Position numbers and translations under genes: made by a program
Assembly (NCBI RefSeq): GCF_007989825.1
Contig: NZ_BJUA01000001.1
Span: 186,001-250,000 of the forward strand
Reading direction: 5' to 3'
DNA: 64,000 bases
DNA from: Cellulomonas persica
GTDB lineage: Bacteria > Actinomycetota > Actinomycetes > Actinomycetales > Cellulomonadaceae
Notes under the pieces: model-generated
Database searches by the model: none
What the model saw: the letters and a program-made list of their open reading frames with translations, nothing else
Told to the model about the DNA's origin: nothing
Shown: positions 20,926 through 27,802 of the stretch, in pieces
Layout of the letters: each line of letters begins with the position of its first letter
Numbering within the stretch: position 1 is the first letter of the stretch

Positions 20926-22026
20926 ATGGAAGCCCGCCGTCGGCCGCGTCGCGCGCACGCCGCGTCGCCGGTGCACGCCACCAGGGCGCGCCACGGCGTG
21001 GCCCTCGCACTGGCGGGCGCCCTCGCGCTGGCCGGCCCACTCGGCCTCGTCGGCTGCGCGCCGCTCGAGACCGACGCGGGTTCCGCCGCCGGACCTGCCG
21101 CCGCGCGCTCGCCGTCGCCTGCCGCGAGCGCGCCCGACACGGCCCGTCCGACCCCCGCTGCCGACGAGTCGCCCGCGACCTCGTCGCCCACCCCGGCGCC
21201 CGCTGCCTCGTCGTCCGGCGCCTCGGACACCCCGACCGCGCTCGCCGCGCTGGCGATCCTGGAGGTCAAGGGACGTGCGCCGCAGACCGGGTACGACCGC
21301 GACCTGTTCGCCTACCGGTCCGTGGACCTGGACCGCAACGGCTGCGACACGCGCAACGACATCCTGCGCCGCGACCTCGTCGACCAGGAGGTCCGCCCCG
21401 ACGGCTGCGTCGTCGAGTCCGGCACGCTGCTCGACCCGTACTCGGGCATAGCGATCGCGTTCCGTCGCGGGCAGGCCACGTCCGCTGACGTGCAGATCGA
21501 CCACGTCGTCGCCCTGGCCGACGCATGGCAGAAGGGCGCGCAGCGGTGGGATGCGGCGACGCGGGAGTCGTTCGGCAACGACCCGCTGAACCTCCTCGCG
21601 GTCGACGGCCCGTCGAACCAGCGCAAGGGCGCGGGCGACGCCGCGACGTGGCTGCCGCCGAACCGCGCGTTCCGGTGCGCGTACGTCGCGCGCCAGGTCG
21701 CGGTGAAGCACGCGTACGGGCTCTGGGTGACGGCCGCGGAGCGCGACGCGATCGCGCGCGTGCTCGCGACCTGTCCCGACGAGCCCCTGCCCGACGCGCA
21801 CGCGTCGCCGACCACGGACCCGGCGTGGACGGCACCCGATGACGCGGCGACGCACGAGCCCACGCCCGCTGCGACGACCGAGGCGCCGGCTCCCGCCGAC
21901 GACGTCACGGTGTACTACGCGAGCTGCACGCAGGCCCGCGCAGCGGGCGCCGCGCCGCTGCACCGGGGTGACCCCGGCTACCGGTCGGGTCTGGACCGCG
22001 ACGGCGACGGCATCGCCTGCGAGTGA
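20926..22026 (+). CDS. Secreted HNH-type nuclease (DUF1524) with excalibur calcium-binding C-terminus
   Basis: The 366-residue product has an N-terminal signal ending in LGLVGC, so it is probably a lipoprotein or secreted protein. A Ser/Pro/Ala/Thr-rich linker runs to about residue 110. The nuclease domain (residues about 115-290) carries the DUF1524/HNH core QIDHVVALADAWQKGA near 190 and NDPLNLLAVDGPSNQRKG. After a second linker the C-terminus ends LDRDGDGIACE, an excalibur calcium-binding motif. Extracellular DNA or RNA degradation for nutrient use or defence is likely. The ATG lacks a strong ribosome-binding site. It follows dinB after 69 bases and has no obvious SOS box of its own. Confidence 0.87.
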   Translation: MEARRRPRRAHAASPVHATRARHGVALALAGALALAGPLGLVGCAPLETDAGSAAGPAAARSPSPAASAPDTARPTPAADESPATSSPTPAPAASSSGASDTPTALAALAILEVKGRAPQTGYDRDLFAYRSVDLDRNGCDTRNDILRRDLVDQEVRPDGCVVESGTLLDPYSGIAIAFRRGQATSADVQIDHVVALADAWQKGAQRWDAATRESFGNDPLNLLAVDGPSNQRKGAGDAATWLPPNRAFRCAYVARQVAVKHAYGLWVTAAERDAIARVLATCPDEPLPDAHASPTTDPAWTAPDDAATHEPTPAATTEAPAPADDVTVYYASCTQARAAGAAPLHRGDPGYRSGLDRDGDGIACE

Positions 22027-22094
22027 CCCGCCGGTCCGCTCCGGCGGGCGGGGCGTGGTCTTGCCGGCCCGACCGGGCGGGCCAGGGCCGTCTC

Positions 22095-22123
22095 GGGATC
22101 CATCGGGATTGACGATGGATCCC
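22095..22123. promoter_or_regulatory. 10-bp inverted repeat, probable operator of the MarR gene
   Basis: GGGATCCATC, nine bases, GATGGATCCC: a perfect inverted repeat ending 21 bases before the MarR-family GTG. Its length and position fit autoregulation by the adjacent regulator. Confidence 0.6.
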
Positions 22124-22144
22124 GGTCGGACGACGGTGAGGCGT

Positions 22145-22708
22145 GTGACCACCACGACCAGCCCGGACCACCCGTTCGGCACGCGCTTCGAGGCCCTGTT
22201 CCAGCAGGCCTACCTGCGCTTCCACCGTCGCGACGAGCCGCGCTCCGAGCTCGCGGGGGCGTCGCGGGCCGTGCTCGCGCACCTCGCGATGGCCGGTCCG
22301 CTCACGGTCGGCCAGGCCGCCGACCACCTGCGCCGCGCGCAGTCCGTGGTGAGCGAGATCGTGACGCACCTCGAACGCGACGGCCTGCTCGCGCGCGAGC
22401 GCGACCCGGCCGATCGTCGTCGCACGCTCGTCTGGCTCACGCCTGACGGGTTCGAGCGTCTCGCGGCCGACCGCCGCGTCCTGTCCCCCGCGCTCGTCGA
22501 CCGGGCGGCCGCCGCGCTGCCGCCCGAGCAGCGCGACCGTCTGCTCGCCGACCTGGCCGCGCTGCTCGCCGGCGACGACGCCGTCACGACCACGCACGAC
22601 GGCGCTCACGGCGACGCAACCGCCAGCGTCACCAGCGGCACCCCCGACCTCACCGCGCAGTCCCCCGACGCCCGTGCGGGCGTCCTCACCGAAGGAGAAC
22701 CCCGATGA
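22145..22708 (+). CDS. MarR family transcriptional regulator
   Basis: The 187-residue protein has a MarR winged helix-turn-helix: LTVGQAADHLRRAQSVVSEIVTHLERDGLLARERDPADRRRTLVWLT spans roughly residues 58-104 (named only to place it; the key signature is DPADRRRTLVWLT, the wing). A hydrophilic, probably disordered tail of about 45 residues follows. The GTG at 22145 is chosen because GGTGAG precedes it and because an upstream ATG at 22115 lies inside the operator-like palindrome. The stop overlaps the ATG of the zinc-ribbon gene, so the two are co-expressed. The ligand is unknown. Confidence 0.85.
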   Translation: MTTTTSPDHPFGTRFEALFQQAYLRFHRRDEPRSELAGASRAVLAHLAMAGPLTVGQAADHLRRAQSVVSEIVTHLERDGLLARERDPADRRRTLVWLTPDGFERLAADRRVLSPALVDRAAAALPPEQRDRLLADLAALLAGDDAVTTTHDGAHGDATASVTSGTPDLTAQSPDARAGVLTEGEPR

Positions 22709-22965
22709 GCACCACGACCGAGCACGACCACGTCCACGCCGCCGCGTGCGAGAGCTGCGGCATGCCGATCGAGTCGGGGCGGTACTGCGCGTACTGCACC
22801 GACGAGACCGGGGCGCTGCAGGCGTTCGAGGAGCGGTTCGAGCGCATGGTGTCCTGGCAGGAGCGCCGCAACCCGGGAGCGTCCCGGGCCGAGCTCGAGG
22901 AGCAGACGAAGGCCTACATGGCGACGATGCCGGCGTGGCGCGACCACCCGTCGCTCGCCCGCTGA
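22705..22965 (+). CDS. Small zinc-ribbon protein
   Basis: An 86-residue cytoplasmic protein with ACESCGMPIESGRYCAYCTD near residues 14-33. The two Cys-x2-Cys pairs form a zinc ribbon of the putative zinc-ribbon family. The rest is helical (FEERFERMVSWQERRNPGASRAELEE region). It overlaps the MarR gene by four bases and is probably under the same control. Such proteins often accompany MarR regulators, but the function is unknown. Confidence 0.75.
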   Translation: MSTTTEHDHVHAAACESCGMPIESGRYCAYCTDETGALQAFEERFERMVSWQERRNPGASRAELEEQTKAYMATMPAWRDHPSLAR

Positions 22966-22987
22966 CGCCGCCGCTGTCCGTGGTCGC

Positions 22988-23003
22988 TCACCTGATCAGG
23001 TGA
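22988..23003. promoter_or_regulatory. Perfect 16-bp palindrome TCACCTGATCAGGTGA
   Basis: A perfect palindrome lies 23 bases after the zinc-ribbon stop and 56 bases before the next ATG. GTGAAGATCACC overlaps its end as a second partial dyad. It could be an operator for the membrane-protein gene or a short terminator; it lacks a loop, so an operator is more likely. Confidence 0.5.
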
Positions 23004-23058
23004 AGATCACCCACGGCAGGTCTATGCCCGGTCCGGTGGCGAGGATCACGCTGGCGAC

Positions 23059-24045
23059 ATGGGCGTGCGCAGCGCGTGGCGCCAGATGCGCCGGTCAGCG
23101 CAGGGTGAGGACGCGGAGTCCACACCCGGCCCCGCTGCGCGCGAGATGGAGAGCAACCGCTGGTCGGCCGTGACGGCGCTGGTGATCTCGGCGTTGGTGT
23201 CGGTCGGCGTGCTCGCGGCGATCGTGCTGCTGCTCCAGCGGCTCAACACGGATCAGCCGACCGCGGCGCTCTCGCTCGTGTTCGTGGCGGCGGCGGTGGT
23301 GCTGATCCTGGTCGTGGGTGCGCTCACCGTCATCCTCAAGCGCCTGCGGCTGGACAACGGCGAGGAGGCGATGGGGCTCCCGTCCGGGAGCGTGCGGGCG
23401 GTCCTCGCCCTCCTGCTCGTCATGCTGTTCTTCATCAGCGCGATGTTCCTGTTCGACGCCACCCGCAACCGGGCCTCGACGGACCCCGCGACGTTCCGCA
23501 CGATCGACGGGCTGACCGCCGTACAGCTCGCGCAGGTCCCGCTCGAGCAGGTGAAGCAGTCGTCGCAGCGCGAGCAGGACGGCACGGTCGTGTACGACGT
23601 GGTGCTGTACGCGCCGCCGACCTCCACCCGCACGTCCGACGACCTCGCCAAGCAGCTCGTGACGACGGTCGCCACGCTCGTGACGGCGGTCGCGGCCTTC
23701 TACTTCGGGTCGAACACGGTCACCACCGCCCGCGCGATGGCGGACAACCACCCGCAGGGCCCGACGGTGCCCCTGGCGCCGGCGGGCGCTCCGGGCGCGG
23801 GCGCGGTCACCTCAGGAGAGCCCGCGGGCGGTGCTGCGCCCACCGGCGGCGAGGCGACCATGTCGGCGACGGCCGAGCACCCACCGGGCCGGGGCGCGGC
23901 GGGTACGGCGGAGCCTGCAGCGAGGGGAGTCGCGGCGTCACCGAGCGCCGGCGGTGCGGCGGCGACGCCCGTCAAGCCCGTGCGTGCGACGTCGACGGAG
24001 CGCCGAGGCAGGACGCGCGCGGCGAACCCCGACGAGTCCCGCTAG
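23059..24045 (+). CDS. Hypothetical membrane protein
   Basis: The 328-residue product has a charged N-terminus and hydrophobic segments at about residues 35-57, 70-92 and 112-132. A soluble stretch of about 65 residues follows, then another hydrophobic segment near 195-215 (VATLVTAVAAFYFGSNTVT). The last 110 residues are low-complexity Ala/Gly/Pro with a basic end. The motif MGLPSGSVRAVLALLLVMLFF before the third segment recurs in uncharacterised bacterial membrane proteins. No enzyme motif is visible. It is monocistronic and followed by a strong hairpin. Confidence 0.65.
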   Translation: MGVRSAWRQMRRSAQGEDAESTPGPAAREMESNRWSAVTALVISALVSVGVLAAIVLLLQRLNTDQPTAALSLVFVAAAVVLILVVGALTVILKRLRLDNGEEAMGLPSGSVRAVLALLLVMLFFISAMFLFDATRNRASTDPATFRTIDGLTAVQLAQVPLEQVKQSSQREQDGTVVYDVVLYAPPTSTRTSDDLAKQLVTTVATLVTAVAAFYFGSNTVTTARAMADNHPQGPTVPLAPAGAPGAGAVTSGEPAGGAAPTGGEATMSATAEHPPGRGAAGTAEPAARGVAASPSAGGAAATPVKPVRATSTERRGRTRAANPDESR

Positions 24046-24101
24046 GACGCGGGCAGCACGCACACGCTCCTCGCGTGCCGTGCACGGCTCGAGCCGACGA
24101 C

Positions 24102-24128
24102 CGATTGCTCGCTCCTCGCGAGCAGTCG
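24102..24128 (+). terminator. Hairpin after the membrane protein gene
   Basis: CGATTGCTCGC, loop TCCTC, GCGAGCAGTCG: an 11-bp stem with one G-T pair, 56 bases after the stop codon. No U-tract follows. It probably terminates the upstream gene and insulates the ABC-F leader. Confidence 0.5.
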
Positions 24129-24163
24129 TGCCGGGGCATCGACGCAGTCGACCGAGAAAGACG

Positions 24164-24193
24164 TTGCCGAGGGACGCCTGGGCATGTCAGGCT
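24164..24193 (+). promoter_or_regulatory. Putative promoter of the ABC-F leader
   Basis: TTGCCG at 24164-24169 and CAGGCT at 24188-24193 with an 18-base spacer would start a transcript near 24200, just before the leader ORF. The short A-run in GAGAAAGAC just upstream of the -35 is reminiscent of WhiB7-dependent promoters, but too short to claim. Confidence 0.3.
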
Positions 24194-24228
24194 CTGCGCG
24201 TCCTTGTCGTCTCCTGAAGGTCGTGATC

Positions 24229-24267
24229 ATGACGGGCACCCGGTTCGCGCCGCGCCAGCCGCGCTGA
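24229..24267 (+). CDS. Leader peptide MTGTRFAPRQPR upstream of the ABC-F gene
   Basis: A 12-codon ORF begins at ATG 24229 with GAAGG 8 bases upstream, a better ribosome-binding site than many full genes here. It ends at TGA 24267, 67 bases before the ABC-F ATG. It is rich in Arg and Pro near its end (APRQPR), codons that favour drug-dependent ribosome stalling. Antibiotic-resistance ABC-F and erm genes are commonly controlled by such leader ORFs. A longer in-frame ATG at 24184 exists but would lie upstream of the predicted transcript start. Confidence 0.55.
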   Translation: MTGTRFAPRQPR

Positions 24268-24334
24268 CCACCTCCCGCCGCCGCCATGAGGCGCGGGCAG
24301 GGTTCAGCGCATCCGCCGAACCCCCGGAGCCCGT

Positions 24335-26008
24335 ATGTCCACCCCTTCCTCCTCGCCTGCGCGCGCTGCTGCGCGCCCCTCGGTCACCTTCACGGACGTC
24401 ACGCTCGTCCGCGACGACGGGACCGTCACGCTCGCGGACGTCACCGGCTCGTTCGGTCCCGGCCGCACGGGCCTCGTCGGCGCCAACGGCTCCGGCAAGT
24501 CCACGCTCCTGCGCCTCGCGGCCGGCCTGCTCGAGCCCACGTCGGGCTCGGTCGTCGCCGCGGGTGAGGTCGCCCTTCTCCCGCAGCACGTGACGCTCGA
24601 CGCCACGGCCACGGTCGCCGACCTGCTCGGGGTCGGAGCAACCCTCGCGTCGTTGCGCGCGATCGAGTCGGGTGACGTCGCCGAGCACCACTTCGAGGTC
24701 GTCGACGACGACTGGGACGTCGAGGCCCGCGCGGCGGACGCCCTGCACCCGCTGGGTCTGGGCGCCGCCGACCTCGACCGCTCGGTCGCGACGTTGTCCG
24801 GCGGCGAGGCGATGCTCGTCGCCGTCGCCGGGCTGCGGCTGCGTCGTGCGGCGGTCACGCTGCTCGACGAGCCGACGAACAACCTCGACCGCGCCGCGCG
24901 TGCCGCGCTGCGCGAGGTCGTCCGCTCGTGGCCCGGTGCGCTCGTCGTCGTCTCGCACGACACGGCGCTGCTCGAGGAGATGGACGAGACCGCGGAGCTC
25001 TACGCCCACCGGCTGTCGGTGCACGGCGGACCGTACTCGTCGTGGCGCGCGCAGCTCGAGACCGAGCAGGCCGCCGCCGCGCAGGCCGCGCGGACCGCGG
25101 AGCAGCAGGTCAAGGTCGAGCGCCGCCAGCGGATCGAGGCCGAGACCAAGCTCGCGCGACGGGCGCGGCAGGGCCGCGCGATGGCACTCAACGCGAAGGC
25201 CGCCCCGATCGTGCTGCACGCGTGGGCGGCGAAGGCCGAGGTGACGGCTGGTCGGCACCGCCGCCTCATGGACGACAAGATGTCCTCGGCTCGCGCGGCC
25301 GCGGACGAGGCTGCCGCTCGCGTGCGCGACGACGAGTCGGTGCACCTCGAGCTCGGCGACCCTGACGTGCCGCGCAGCCGCCGGATCGCGGAGCTGCCGG
25401 GGTCGTCGGCCGGTGCCGGGACCGTGGTCGTGCAGGGGCCCGAGCGCGTGGGGCTGGTCGGTGCGAACGGCGTGGGGAAGACGACGCTGCTGGAGCTGCT
25501 CGTGCACGGCTCGGTGCGGGACGCCGATGCGCGTGGCGTACCGATCGACGCGGCGCGCGTGCGCCTGCTGACAGACCGCGTCGGGTACCTGCCGCAGCGG
25601 TCGTGGCACCTGGACGACGACGCGAGCGCGCTCCAGCTCGTGGCCGCAGCCGCACCGTCGGTCCCGACGAGGGAGCTGCGCAACCGGCTGGCCCGTCTGC
25701 TCCTGCGGGGTGACACCGTGCACCGTCCGGTGCGGACGCTGTCGGGCGGCGAGCGGTTCCGCGTGGCGCTCGCGCGGCTGCTCCTCGCCGACCCGCCGCC
25801 GCAGCTGCTGGTGCTCGACGAGCCGACGAACGACCTGGACCTGACCACGGTCGACCAGCTCGTCGGCGCGCTGGCCGCCTACCGCGGCGCGCTGCTCGTG
25901 GTCAGCCACGACGACGCGTTCCTGGCACGGCTCGGCCTCGACCGCGTGCTCGAGCTGGACCGCGCGGGCGACCTGCACGAGATCGAGCTGCCGGCGCCCG
26001 CACGCTGA
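24335..26008 (+). CDS. ABC-F family ATPase (antibiotic-resistance ribosome-protection type)
   Basis: ABC-F proteins carry two ATPase domains without membrane parts and act on the ribosome; resistance members displace bound antibiotics from the exit site. The 557-residue product has Walker A motifs GANGSGKST (about 48) and GANGVGKTT (about 375), signatures LSGGEAM (about 154) and LSGGERF (about 468), and Walker B LLDEPTNNLD and VLDEPTNDLD. The inter-domain linker (about 225-345) is long, charged and helical (QVKVERRQRIEAETKLARRARQ region), as in ARE-type members. The ATG has GGAG six bases upstream. A leader ORF precedes it. Which drug it handles cannot be told from sequence alone. Confidence 0.88.
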   Translation: MSTPSSSPARAAARPSVTFTDVTLVRDDGTVTLADVTGSFGPGRTGLVGANGSGKSTLLRLAAGLLEPTSGSVVAAGEVALLPQHVTLDATATVADLLGVGATLASLRAIESGDVAEHHFEVVDDDWDVEARAADALHPLGLGAADLDRSVATLSGGEAMLVAVAGLRLRRAAVTLLDEPTNNLDRAARAALREVVRSWPGALVVVSHDTALLEEMDETAELYAHRLSVHGGPYSSWRAQLETEQAAAAQAARTAEQQVKVERRQRIEAETKLARRARQGRAMALNAKAAPIVLHAWAAKAEVTAGRHRRLMDDKMSSARAAADEAAARVRDDESVHLELGDPDVPRSRRIAELPGSSAGAGTVVVQGPERVGLVGANGVGKTTLLELLVHGSVRDADARGVPIDAARVRLLTDRVGYLPQRSWHLDDDASALQLVAAAAPSVPTRELRNRLARLLLRGDTVHRPVRTLSGGERFRVALARLLLADPPPQLLVLDEPTNDLDLTTVDQLVGALAAYRGALLVVSHDDAFLARLGLDRVLELDRAGDLHEIELPAPAR

Positions 26009-26060
26009 GCGCGCACACTGAGCGCGCACACTGAGCGAGCACGCTGAGCCCTCGCACTGA
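26005..26060 (+). repeat. Four 13-bp tandem repeats over the ABC-F stop codon
   Basis: CTGAGCGCGCACA occurs twice exactly, then CTGAGCGAGCACG and CTGAGCCCTCGCA. The first copy contains the stop codon. Loss of frame is not at risk because TGA is in every copy. Confidence 0.8.
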
Positions 26061-26116
26061 TCCGGCGCACCGCGCGGAGCGACCCGAGGGACGACGCAGG
26101 GAGGCGGGGCCGCCGG

Positions 26117-27802
26117 TCAGCGTGCGGTGAGCTCCGCCTCGTCGGGACCGGCGCACCCGACGGCGCGAGACTCACGTGGGCCGTCGTCGCTCGCGACGGC
26201 GTCGGTCCCGGCGGGCGTCTCTGCCTCGAGCGCGGAGCGCGGCAGGGGAACGACGGCCTCGAGCACGACCGACCCGTCCGAGGGTCCGTCGACGAGCGTC
26301 GGCACGGTCGCGCCGGTCCAGTCGTGGGCCGCGAGCACGTCGTCGCTCGCCGGGGTCGTCGTCTCCACGCCCGCCACCGCGACGTCGCCCGGGACCGCGG
26401 CACGACGCGACAGGACGTCGGCACTCGTCGCGACCTCGTCGGTCCCGGCCGCGTGTGCCCCGCCTGCCGAGGCGGCGACACCGAGCGCGCGGTGGGCCCG
26501 GACGTACGCCGGGACCAGCAGGACGATCGCGCCGACCCAGGCCAACGGGTTGCCCCAGACGACGCCCGTGTACCCGAACGCGGCACCGAGCACGATGGCG
26601 GCGCCCACGCGCATCACGAGCTCGAGCACGCCCGTCATGGTCGGCACGAAGGACTGTCCCAAGCCCTGCAGGGCACCTCGCAGGACGAACAGCGCCCCGA
26701 GGAGCGTGTAGGTCGCACCGTTGACGGTGAGGAGGACCGCCGCCATCTCGACGACGCGCTCCTCCCCCGGGCCGACGAAGAGCTCGACGAGGCGCGCTCC
26801 GCTCGAGATGAGCACCACCCCGAGGAGCACCGCACCGGCGAACGCGATGCCCAGGGACTCGAGCACGCCGCGCCGGATGCGGTCGGGCCGCCGCCCGCCG
26901 TGGTTCTGCGCGACGAACGTGGACACCGCGAGCCCGAGCGAGGCGAGCAGCGCGATGGCGAGCCCGTCGACGCGCGCCGCGGTCGTGTAGGCCGCGACGG
27001 CGTCCGCACCGAGCTCGTTGAGCCGCAGCTGCACCGCGAGTGTCCCGATCGCGATGATCGAGGCCTGGAAGCCCATCGGCAGGCCGAGGCGCAGGTGGCG
27101 CGTGACGTCCCCGCGGCTGATGCGCCAGTCCTCTCGCCGGACGTGCAGCACGGGGACGCGACGACGCACGTACTCGAGGCAGAGCAGCACCGAGATCAGC
27201 TGCGAGACCACCGTCGCGAGCGCGGCGCCGCCGACGCCCGTGCCGAGGCCGTTCACGAGCGTGACGACGAGCGCGACGTTGAGCAGGCAGCTCACGGTGA
27301 GGAACACGAGGGGCGTGCGAGAGTCGCCGATCGCCCGGATGATCGCGGCGAGGTAGTTGTAGAACATCGTCACGGCCGAGCCGGCGAAGCTGACGAGCGC
27401 GAAGGTGCGCGCCTCGGGCACCAGCTCGGCGGGCGTGTGCAGCCAGCCGAGCGCCGGCTCGACGAGCCCGATCGCGACGACCGTGAGGACGACGCTCGCG
27501 CCGGCCGCCAGGATCGTTCCCGTCGCGACCGAGCGCCGCACTCCCCGCTGGTCCCCCGCGCCGAAGGCCTGCGCGGTCGGGATCGCGAACCCCGACGTCA
27601 TACCCCACGCCGCGCCGAGCAGGAGGAACAGCAGGCTGCCGACCACGCCGACGGCGGCCAGCGACGTGACGCCGAGGGTGCGTCCGACGACGAACGCATC
27701 GGCGACCTGGTAGAGCTGCTGGACCAGGTTGCCGACGAGCAAGGGGACGGCGAAGACGAGGATGACGCGCCAGGGGCGGCCGGTCGTGAGGACCTTCGCC
27801 AT
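26117..27802 (-). CDS. MATE family efflux transporter
   Basis: MATE proteins export cationic drugs in exchange for sodium or protons across the cytoplasmic membrane. The 561-residue product starts PWRVILVFAVPLLVGNLVQQLYQVADAFVVGRTLG, typical of transmembrane helix 1 (residues 10-44). It has about twelve helices and the repeated-half motif WGMTSGFAIPTAQAFGAGD. The last roughly 100 residues are hydrophilic, Thr/Asp/Val-rich and outside the family length, probably a cytoplasmic disordered tail. It is convergent with the ABC-F gene, whose 3' repeats lie between. The ATG at 27802 begins the conserved region directly. Substrate unknown. Confidence 0.9.
   Translation of the reverse strand: MAKVLTTGRPWRVILVFAVPLLVGNLVQQLYQVADAFVVGRTLGVTSLAAVGVVGSLLFLLLGAAWGMTSGFAIPTAQAFGAGDQRGVRRSVATGTILAAGASVVLTVVAIGLVEPALGWLHTPAELVPEARTFALVSFAGSAVTMFYNYLAAIIRAIGDSRTPLVFLTVSCLLNVALVVTLVNGLGTGVGGAALATVVSQLISVLLCLEYVRRRVPVLHVRREDWRISRGDVTRHLRLGLPMGFQASIIAIGTLAVQLRLNELGADAVAAYTTAARVDGLAIALLASLGLAVSTFVAQNHGGRRPDRIRRGVLESLGIAFAGAVLLGVVLISSGARLVELFVGPGEERVVEMAAVLLTVNGATYTLLGALFVLRGALQGLGQSFVPTMTGVLELVMRVGAAIVLGAAFGYTGVVWGNPLAWVGAIVLLVPAYVRAHRALGVAASAGGAHAAGTDEVATSADVLSRRAAVPGDVAVAGVETTTPASDDVLAAHDWTGATVPTLVDGPSDGSVVLEAVVPLPRSALEAETPAGTDAVASDDGPRESRAVGCAGPDEAELTAR

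Follow-up and report, generated by a model that had tools for sequence, protein, structure and literature searches.

A conserved short ORF as part of a probable translational attenuator of an antibiotic-resistance-type ABC-F gene

Introduction

The window, by which we mean here the whole analysed stretch of 64,000 nucleotides, contains a twelve-codon open reading frame with its own SD sequence shortly upstream of a gene encoding an ABC-F protein. The question raised by this locus is whether the short ORF (uORF) belongs to a leader that regulates the gene, and whether it would do so through its peptide or through its RNA. The original prediction regarded the leader as a drug-sensing attenuator and, should the peptide be conserved, as a possible source of an undescribed stalling peptide. 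The features concerned are as follows.

24102-24128, strand not given: hairpin CGATTGCTCGC-TCCTC-GCGAGCAGTCG, 5' of the promoter and judged to lie outside the leader
24157-24193, plus strand: WhiB7-type promoter (predicted), with AT-rich AAAGA at 24157-24161, -35 element TTGCCG at 24164-24169 and -10 region TGTCAGGCT at 24185-24193
24216-24220, plus strand: SD sequence GAAGG of the leader ORF, pairing with CCTTC 24344-24348 in the predicted OFF fold
24229-24267, plus strand: leader ORF encoding MTGTRFAPRQPR, 12 codons, ATG at 24229 and stop codon TGA at 24265-24267
24324-24334, plus strand: ABC-F ribosome-binding site (RBS), CCGGAG followed by CCCGT, sequestered by pairing in the predicted OFF fold
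24335-26008, plus strand: ABC-F gene, 557 aa, two ABC domains

The Locus and Its Predicted Promoter

The leader ORF, the GAAGG eight bases 5' of its ATG, and the distance of 67 nt from its stop codon to the ABC-F ATG at 24335 were all re-found as predicted. The GC fraction is 0.70-0.77 across 22000-27000, the genome harbouring the leader comprises 3.66 Mb on 44 contigs, and Rfam at gathering scores gave no match in the window. The hairpin named in the original prediction is indeed present at 24102-24128, but it does not seem to be part of the leader device: it was not counted as leader RNA because it lies upstream of the promoter and because no such hairpin was seen, in a by-eye reading, upstream of the closest ortholog (L009). 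On the 5' side, the neighbouring gene (23059-24045) codes for a protein of 328 aa that contains hydrophobic stretches and has a tail rich in Pro, Ala and Gly; no Pfam or NCBIfam match to it was found at E<=0.001. On the other side, a MATE-family efflux transporter gene (26117-27802, minus strand) adjoins the ABC-F gene and is convergent with it.

The ABC-F gene is plausibly of the resistance type. In the ortholog alignment A1, the LSGGE and DEPTN motifs each occur twice, and the Pfam scan of the protein gave no membrane segments. The best NCBIfam model was the ribosomal-protection-like ABC-F model, which all 12 proteins of the alignment matched; the 12 also matched the producer (TlrC/CarA/OleB/SrmB), Msr, Vga and EttA models. 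By sequence, the solved structures (PDB) closest to the window's protein were YheS and EttA, followed by an Lsa/Vga-type lincosamide-streptogramin A resistance protein and PoxtA. Since the NCBIfam score of 287.5 bits is under the curated cut-off of 380 and YheS and EttA are the top structures, the resistance-type identity is plausible rather than proven. The PADLOC matches in the window appear to be generic ATPase matches and were set aside.

The promoter guessed at 24164-24193 in the original prediction looks good, consisting of TTGCCG (24164-24169), an 18-nt spacer and CAGGCT (24188-24193), with the AT-rich AAAGA ahead of it; a sigma-70 consensus scanner called no promoter over 23900-24500. 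Transcription is predicted to start near 24200, i.e., 5' of the leader-ORF ATG. In WhiB7 sites, an AT-rich box was reported to lie 3 bp 5' of the -35 element (PMC10727445). In the window, AAAGA ends two nt ahead of TTGCCG and the AAA within it four nt ahead, so the spacing matches the WhiB7 layout only approximately. Among the 60 homologous leaders described below, 36 have an AT run followed after 2-4 nt by TTG[ACG], compared with 1.2 expected, and 24 are without it. Six WhiB-domain matches were found in the source genome, one of which has the AT hook RGRGRPR, a hook of the kind that marks WhiB7. Judged from the sequence, the promoter appears to fit the layout of the WhiB7/WblC regulon. Upstream of the whiB7-like gene of the same genome (L268:1027-1310), reading by eye showed an ORF some 76 codons long and a hairpin that has a T-run and resembles a terminator, an arrangement that agrees with the published whiB7 uORF attenuator.

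Conservation of the Leader ORF

Within the genus, no more than 18 of 81 genomes have an ortholog of the ABC-F protein at E<=1e-100; orthologs were found in 84 of 221 genomes of the family and 95 of 396 of the order at E<=1e-90, and in 99 of 296 genomes of the class at E<=1e-85. A contig-wide ABC-F search (80 loci) was swamped by general ABC-F proteins of 26-34% identity and was not used for the leaders. Upstream sequences were read for 146 places, i.e., 84 of 86 family-level places (G215, at a contig edge, and G145, a partial match, were left out) and, at the order level, 62 of 79 additional ones. Two of the 146, L143 and L216, begin where a contig ends, have no upstream DNA and were counted as misses, which leaves 144 real upstream regions.

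Of the 146 reads, 52 contain an SD-preceded ORF of 7-13 codons that begins with MT[GD] and lies 60-160 nt upstream, compared with 0.10 expected from dinucleotide shuffles; in the family set, 46 of the 84 reads do. After curation, 60 leaders of the window's kind, here called class I, were retained (50 family-level and 10 order-level reads); L152, a chance TTG ORF, was excluded. Most of them start with M-T-G or M-T-D. In the nearest loci the peptides are MTGTRFAPRQPR (L001 and L009), MTGTRFAPHQPR (L010 and L011), MTGMPSAPSPAR (L012) and MTGNRSAPRPAR (L013); genus g19 has MTGISRYETTSR and variants, g24 has MTGLPTAA-like peptides and g8 has VTGTTVGPTSR with a GTG start, and VKFFDGFAPQSAR, LTGISGFATQSAR and MTDLRSAPPAR occur in other families. 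Many of the other upstream reads have other short ORFs (class II, two-codon ORFs) or nothing recognised. A 22-mer pattern search allowing up to three mismatches gave a match in 66 of 81 genomes; only four matches were free of mismatches, lying ahead of the ABC-F orthologs of G000, G019, G020 and G021, and all others had three mismatches, save one with two. In the ABC-F protein tree (56 rows, L143 and L216 left out), the leader classes cluster, yet not each is of single origin.

In the class-level search, 18 loci out of more than 100 places were inspected. Four of them (genus g139) have the three-codon uORF described below, class I-like leaders are carried by L272, L276 and L277, as well as by the order-level locus L281, and the remaining ten of the 18 have other or no clear uORFs. 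In L273, L274 and L275, a GTG ORF with a strong SD sequence (VDYSAAHLP... or VDHSAAHL...) was seen by eye to begin just before the ABC-F gene; it seems to enter the gene in a different frame and may represent a leader variant with overlapping ORFs.

The leader ORF is thus conserved in the orthologs, and the absence from orthologous leaders that would have spoken against the original prediction was not seen. GC-rich DNA is rich in short ORFs, and many overlapping ORFs occur in the window, so that a chance ORF in a GC-rich intergenic region could be suspected; the 52 of 146 reads against 0.10 expected, together with a divergence about fourfold below that of both flanks in the window's group, count as having already refuted this reading, which is left with a negligible probability. 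For the six nearest orthologs, the divergence per site is 0.118 in the uORF, 0.458 in the 24 nt past the stop codon and 0.531 in the stretch from -40 to -13.

Peptide or Nucleotide Constraint

Conservation of this kind could be due to a sequence-specific stalling peptide, the nascent MTGTRFAPRQPR itself arresting the ribosome in the presence of a drug as ErmBL or ErmCL does. The leader peptide is almost identical in four genomes, 52 of 60 leaders retain Thr2, using four different codons (ACG 34, ACA 13, ACC 3 and ACT 2), and a loose C-terminal pattern, [FS]A[PT]xxxR before the stop codon, recurs in other families (L202, L203, L204 and L215). Substitutions were counted by group, using ten groups of same-length peptides that include 47 of the 60 leaders. 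The uORF diverges less than both flanks in seven of the ten; the exceptions are g8_VTD (uORF 0.125, equal to the stretch after the stop codon), g8_MTDR (0.026 vs 0.000 before the ATG) and g14 (0.111, close to the 0.119 of the pre-ATG stretch).

The substitutions within the uORF speak mostly against the stalling peptide. Peptide conservation by synonymous changes, as such a peptide would lead one to expect, fails in the window's group of six, where pN/pS is 2.2, and is weak in the ten groups pooled (pN 0.079, pS 0.111, pN/pS 0.71). Three groups do lean that way (g14 0.22, g19 0.56 and g24 0.59); f3 has 0.68, others 0.96 and 1.04, and three further groups have too few changes for a ratio. Because Thr2 is kept with four codons and these three groups lie at 0.22-0.59, some constraint on the peptide or on the initiation context remains. 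At the other end of the uORF, the last codons read CGC-TGA-C in 41 of 60 leaders and GCC-TGA-C in 13, and among the 46 leaders ending in Arg, 45 use CGC for this residue, as RNA pairing requires, compared with 32 of the 56 Arg codons in the window's ABC-F gene. Furthermore, in five loci of genus g52 (L206, L213, L214, L217 and L218) the ORF appears to be cut to TTG-ATC-TGA, although another start is possible, and the nucleotides of the old uORF end persist beyond its stop codon (CGCGCTGA; ...CGCGCTGAC or ...CGCGCTGAT).

From the non-silent substitutions, the CGC bias and the apparent truncation in g52, it follows that mainly the nucleotide sequence is conserved. The constraint seems to fall mainly on the nucleotides that would form the anti-SD strand described below, with the peptide mostly a by-product. 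The idea of an undescribed stalling peptide, the second part of the original prediction, is therefore unsupported, and we regard it as unlikely; three-codon uORFs in four Streptomyces-like orthologs and the predicted effect of a ribosome at the last codon, both given below, also argue against it. The case also serves as a caution, in that a conserved leader peptide can be the shadow of RNA pairing where, as here, the coding nucleotides are the anti-SD strand.

Predicted RNA Switch

The window leader folds more stably than its shuffles (z -2.90), and the following segments are involved in the predicted structures.

24228-24250, plus strand: anti-SD strand, the 5' part of the uORF (codons 1-8), pairing in the predicted MFE structure with the ABC-F initiation region
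CATG 24228-24231 with TATG 24334-24337: start codon paired with start codon (MFE)
CGGGC 24233-24237 with GCCCG 24329-24333 (MFE)
CC 24239-24240 with GG 24326-24327: pairing with the SD sequence (MFE)
GGTTCG 24242-24247 with CGAACC 24317-24322 (MFE)
GC 24249-24250 with GC 24315-24316 (MFE)
GAAGG 24216-24220 with CCTTC 24344-24348: uORF SD sequence with the start of the ABC-F coding sequence (MFE)
GCGCTGA 24261-24267 with TCAGCGC 24304-24310: 3' end of the uORF (OFF fold)
24299-24323, plus strand: switch segment and pre-SD hairpin, the ON hairpin being GGGTTC 24300-24305 with GAACCC 24318-24323

In the predicted folds, TCAGCGC (24304-24310) is either bound by the uORF end (OFF) or contained in the pre-SD hairpin (ON), and when a ribosome is masked in silico at the uORF start, GGGTTCAGCG...GAACCC folds as the pre-SD hairpin. 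Near the predicted transcript start, before the uORF SD sequence, a 5'-terminal hairpin GTCCCC-GCGG...CCGC-gtgagag-GGGGAC was noticed by eye in several genera, for example in L176 (g8), L154 (g19, in the form GCTCC...GGGAGC) and L180 (g25); it is not obvious in the window's group.

The complementarity between the uORF 5' part and the ABC-F RBS shifts in step between clades, with the partners GGGTACTCC and GGAGTACCC in L022, GGGTCTCC and GGAGACCC in L186, and CTCCCGG and CCGGGAG in L154. In alignment A2, the RBS of three leaders (L180, L167 and L169) is shifted by one base, and variation among the remaining five is small; for these reasons an alignment-free duplex test was used instead of a pairwise covariation count. 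Cognate duplexes between the uORF 5' part and the ABC-F RBS had -19.6 kcal/mol, compared with -16.6 kcal/mol for permuted partners, corresponding to z -6.0 for 35 and -5.6 for 21 stricter representatives, which were hand-picked, one or a few per clade. Ten other segment pairs gave z from -2.4 to -0.1 in the set of 35, and six pairs from -2.3 to +0.7 in the set of 21; these controls included the uORF 5' part with the downstream coding sequence, which stayed within 2.4. For L189, L204 and L215, the gene start was chosen by eye (in L204, an RBS-like ATG some 185 nt 5' of where the ABC-F gene is predicted to start), and without these three loci z was -5.1 (32 representatives) and -5.0 (19); with all 60 leaders it was -7.4. 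Poor cognate duplexes were seen in L025 (rank 35 of 35) and L202 (rank 33 of 35). Among the leaders tested later, the cognate duplex is clearly better in L276 and L281 and not in L272 and L277, and opening is predicted in one of the four. For the duplexes of the uORF end with the spacer arm, z was -2.4 (p 0.009) while the strongest control pair reached -2.35, so the proposed helix of the uORF end with TCAGCGC has modest support.

The predicted openness of the ABC-F RBS depends on the position of the ribosome. In the window, the mean unpaired probability of the RBS is 0.23 without a ribosome, 0.63 with one at the uORF start, 0.74 at codon 5 and 0.06 at the last codon, and it stays at 0.23 with a control mask at the 5' end. 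Of 300 shuffles of the leader, 2.3% are as closed, two (0.7%) show as large a gain with the start masked, and none does so with codon 5 masked. Across the 60 leaders, the mean openness is 0.28 without a ribosome, 0.40 at the start, 0.38 at codon 5, 0.30 at the end and 0.32 with the control mask, and a rise above 0.05 occurs in 38, 36, 20 and 24 leaders for start, codon 5, end and control mask, respectively. When the 60 loci were compared with their shuffles, Wilcoxon p values were 1e-7 for the closed state, 2e-5 for the start and 4e-4 for codon 5.

These results also bear on two other modes of action. Transcription attenuation, in which the leader is terminated in an intrinsic or Rho-dependent manner (lmrC, vmlR and whiB7 are examples), is at least a partial mode of several published ABC-F leaders (PMC8546547, PMC9226507, PMC10201436). 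However, no intrinsic terminator, i.e., no hairpin with a T-run, was found in 23900-24500, and the best-supported pairing masks the ABC-F initiation region itself. Because no such terminator was found, the leader was not assigned to the transcription-attenuation subtype, which is improbable here, and the translational subtype is left. Alternatively, translation of the uORF might hold the RBS open or feed re-initiation at a constant level, with no drug being sensed. The pairing strand is overlapped by the uORF and re-initiation across 67 nt is not impossible, but a ribosome near the uORF stop codon keeps the window RBS shut in the model (0.06), even if a rise above 0.05 was calculated for 20 of the 60 leaders, and the linkage to a WhiB7-type promoter suggests a response to drugs; such drug-independent coupling is very unlikely.

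A Second Class of Leaders

A second kind of leader, class II, was found at 20 loci (L015-L020, L137-L142, L144-L146, L148, L201, L205, L208 and L210) in genus g5, in part of the window's genus and in others. Its uORF, x-ATC-GAG-GTC-GAC-AG[A/G]-x-TAG (IEVDR), stands 181-293 nt upstream of the ABC-F orthologs, and a GC-rich stem follows downstream of it. The mRNA is probably leaderless, because a TANNNT -10-like site lies only a few bases ahead of the GTG or ATG. After GAC, the codon is AGA in 17, AGG in two and AAA in one of the 20 loci, while AGA and AGG together make up 10 of 1051 Arg codons in 19 of the class II ABC-F genes. Most of class II falls in one part of the ABC-F tree. IEVDR presumably resembles the VDK stretch of ErmBL. 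A codon- or peptide-specific sensor is more likely to be found in class II than in the window's class.

Proposed Mechanism

Taken together, the conservation of the ORF, the mainly nucleotide-level constraint, the co-varying anti-SD pairing, the predicted opening and the WhiB7 box were obtained by computation, and with a probability of roughly two in three they reflect a translational attenuator of an antibiotic-resistance-type ABC-F gene. The drug-sensing attenuator of the original prediction is supported to this extent, i.e., in its conserved leader ORF, its promoter-like site upstream and an RNA switch predicted to open with a stalled ribosome, and not in its stalling peptide. We infer that the uORF is translated, that ribosomes are stalled on it by a drug of the kind named below, and that induction takes place at the level of translation.

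The WhiB7-type promoter would yield the mRNA. In the absence of drug, the uORF would be quickly translated and the mRNA would refold, whereupon uORF codons 1-8 would mask the RBS and start codon of the ABC-F gene and the uORF end would keep hold of the 5' arm of the pre-SD hairpin. If a drug, with lincosamide, streptogramin A and pleuromutilin types as candidates by analogy with Are5sc, VmlR and CplR, halted translation at the start codon or the first few codons, a ribosome would be parked on the anti-SD strand; the pre-SD hairpin would then form and the ABC-F RBS would open.

A more far-reaching proposal, which we put forward tentatively and with less than even confidence, is a start-to-start self-antisense switch, in which the uORF initiation region CAUGACGGGCACCCGGUUCG is complementary to that of the ABC-F gene, so that one start codon lies opposite the other. 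Any drug that freezes initiation would then unmask the second start, and the peptide could drift freely while the uORF tracks the RBS by compensatory change across actinobacterial families. If true, this switch would account for many 'conserved leader peptides' as RNA elements. The findings suggest that drug-sensing leaders are widespread ahead of resistance-type ABC-F genes in actinobacteria. The series of them that nature provides, ranging from 2 to 13 codons with similar RNA logic, offers material on the drug sensed and on the relevance of the peptide.

Comparison with Known Leader Systems

Four Streptomyces-like loci (g139; L284, L286, L287 and L288), whose ABC-F orthologs are 48-49% identical to that of the window, all carry the three-codon uORF TTG-CTC-GTC-TGA (LLV, TTG start), preceded by an AT box and by TTGACA or TTGCCG. 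In Streptomyces coelicolor, the are5sc leader was reported to contain the uORF are5scL1 (MLV, TTG start), which stalls at the start codon with lincosamide, streptogramin A and pleuromutilin drugs (PMC12421871). The g139 uORF matches are5scL1, and, judging from this uORF, the ABC-F gene behind it may belong to the same orthologous group as Are5sc. This match is the best hint, by analogy, to the drug class sensed by the window leader. The two leaders share a short uORF before an ABC-F gene and, for the window, an expected start-proximal stalling, and start-codon stalling of are5scL1 agrees with the little weight of the peptide sequence in class I leaders. They differ in that are5scL1 has 3 codons and the window uORF has 12 of other sequence, in that no terminator was found in the window leader, and in that the window uORF codons themselves would be the anti-SD strand. 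The tiaA leader has a 9-codon uORF (MVGDDDISG) unlike that of the window in peptide, which is reported to be stalled at the start codon by the same drug classes as are5scL1 and seems to be regulated at translation (PMC12421871). In what was available of the literature on ABC-F leaders, no description of MTG...R leaders was found; relatives may be among the leaders compiled in PMC12421871 (Data S4).

In Firmicutes, the vmlR (MIN), cplR (MR[I/M]) and lsaA (MAGN) leaders have a uORF ahead of the ABC-F gene, and uORF-triggered induction was described for vmlR and cplR, with the SD sequence sequestered in a hairpin (PMC9226507, PMC10201436). Unlike the window leader, vmlR and cplR have intrinsic terminators, and the vmlR, cplR and lsaA uORFs are very short. 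ErmBL-type leaders likewise combine a leader ORF with a masked downstream start site, the difference being that a peptide-level constraint is weak or absent in the window leader. ErmBL was reported to stall at the tenth codon (PMC8274638). The lmrC leader of Streptomyces lincolnensis acts by transcription attenuation with a terminator, and disruption of its uORF2 resulted in constitutive expression; the likeness is that of an ABC-F gene in an actinobacterium, with ribosome-mediated attenuation in response to drugs of the lincosamide type (PMC8546547). Most likely, the window leader joins these ribosome-mediated attenuation leaders of ABC-F genes, as one in which the coding strand of the uORF doubles as the anti-SD sequence.
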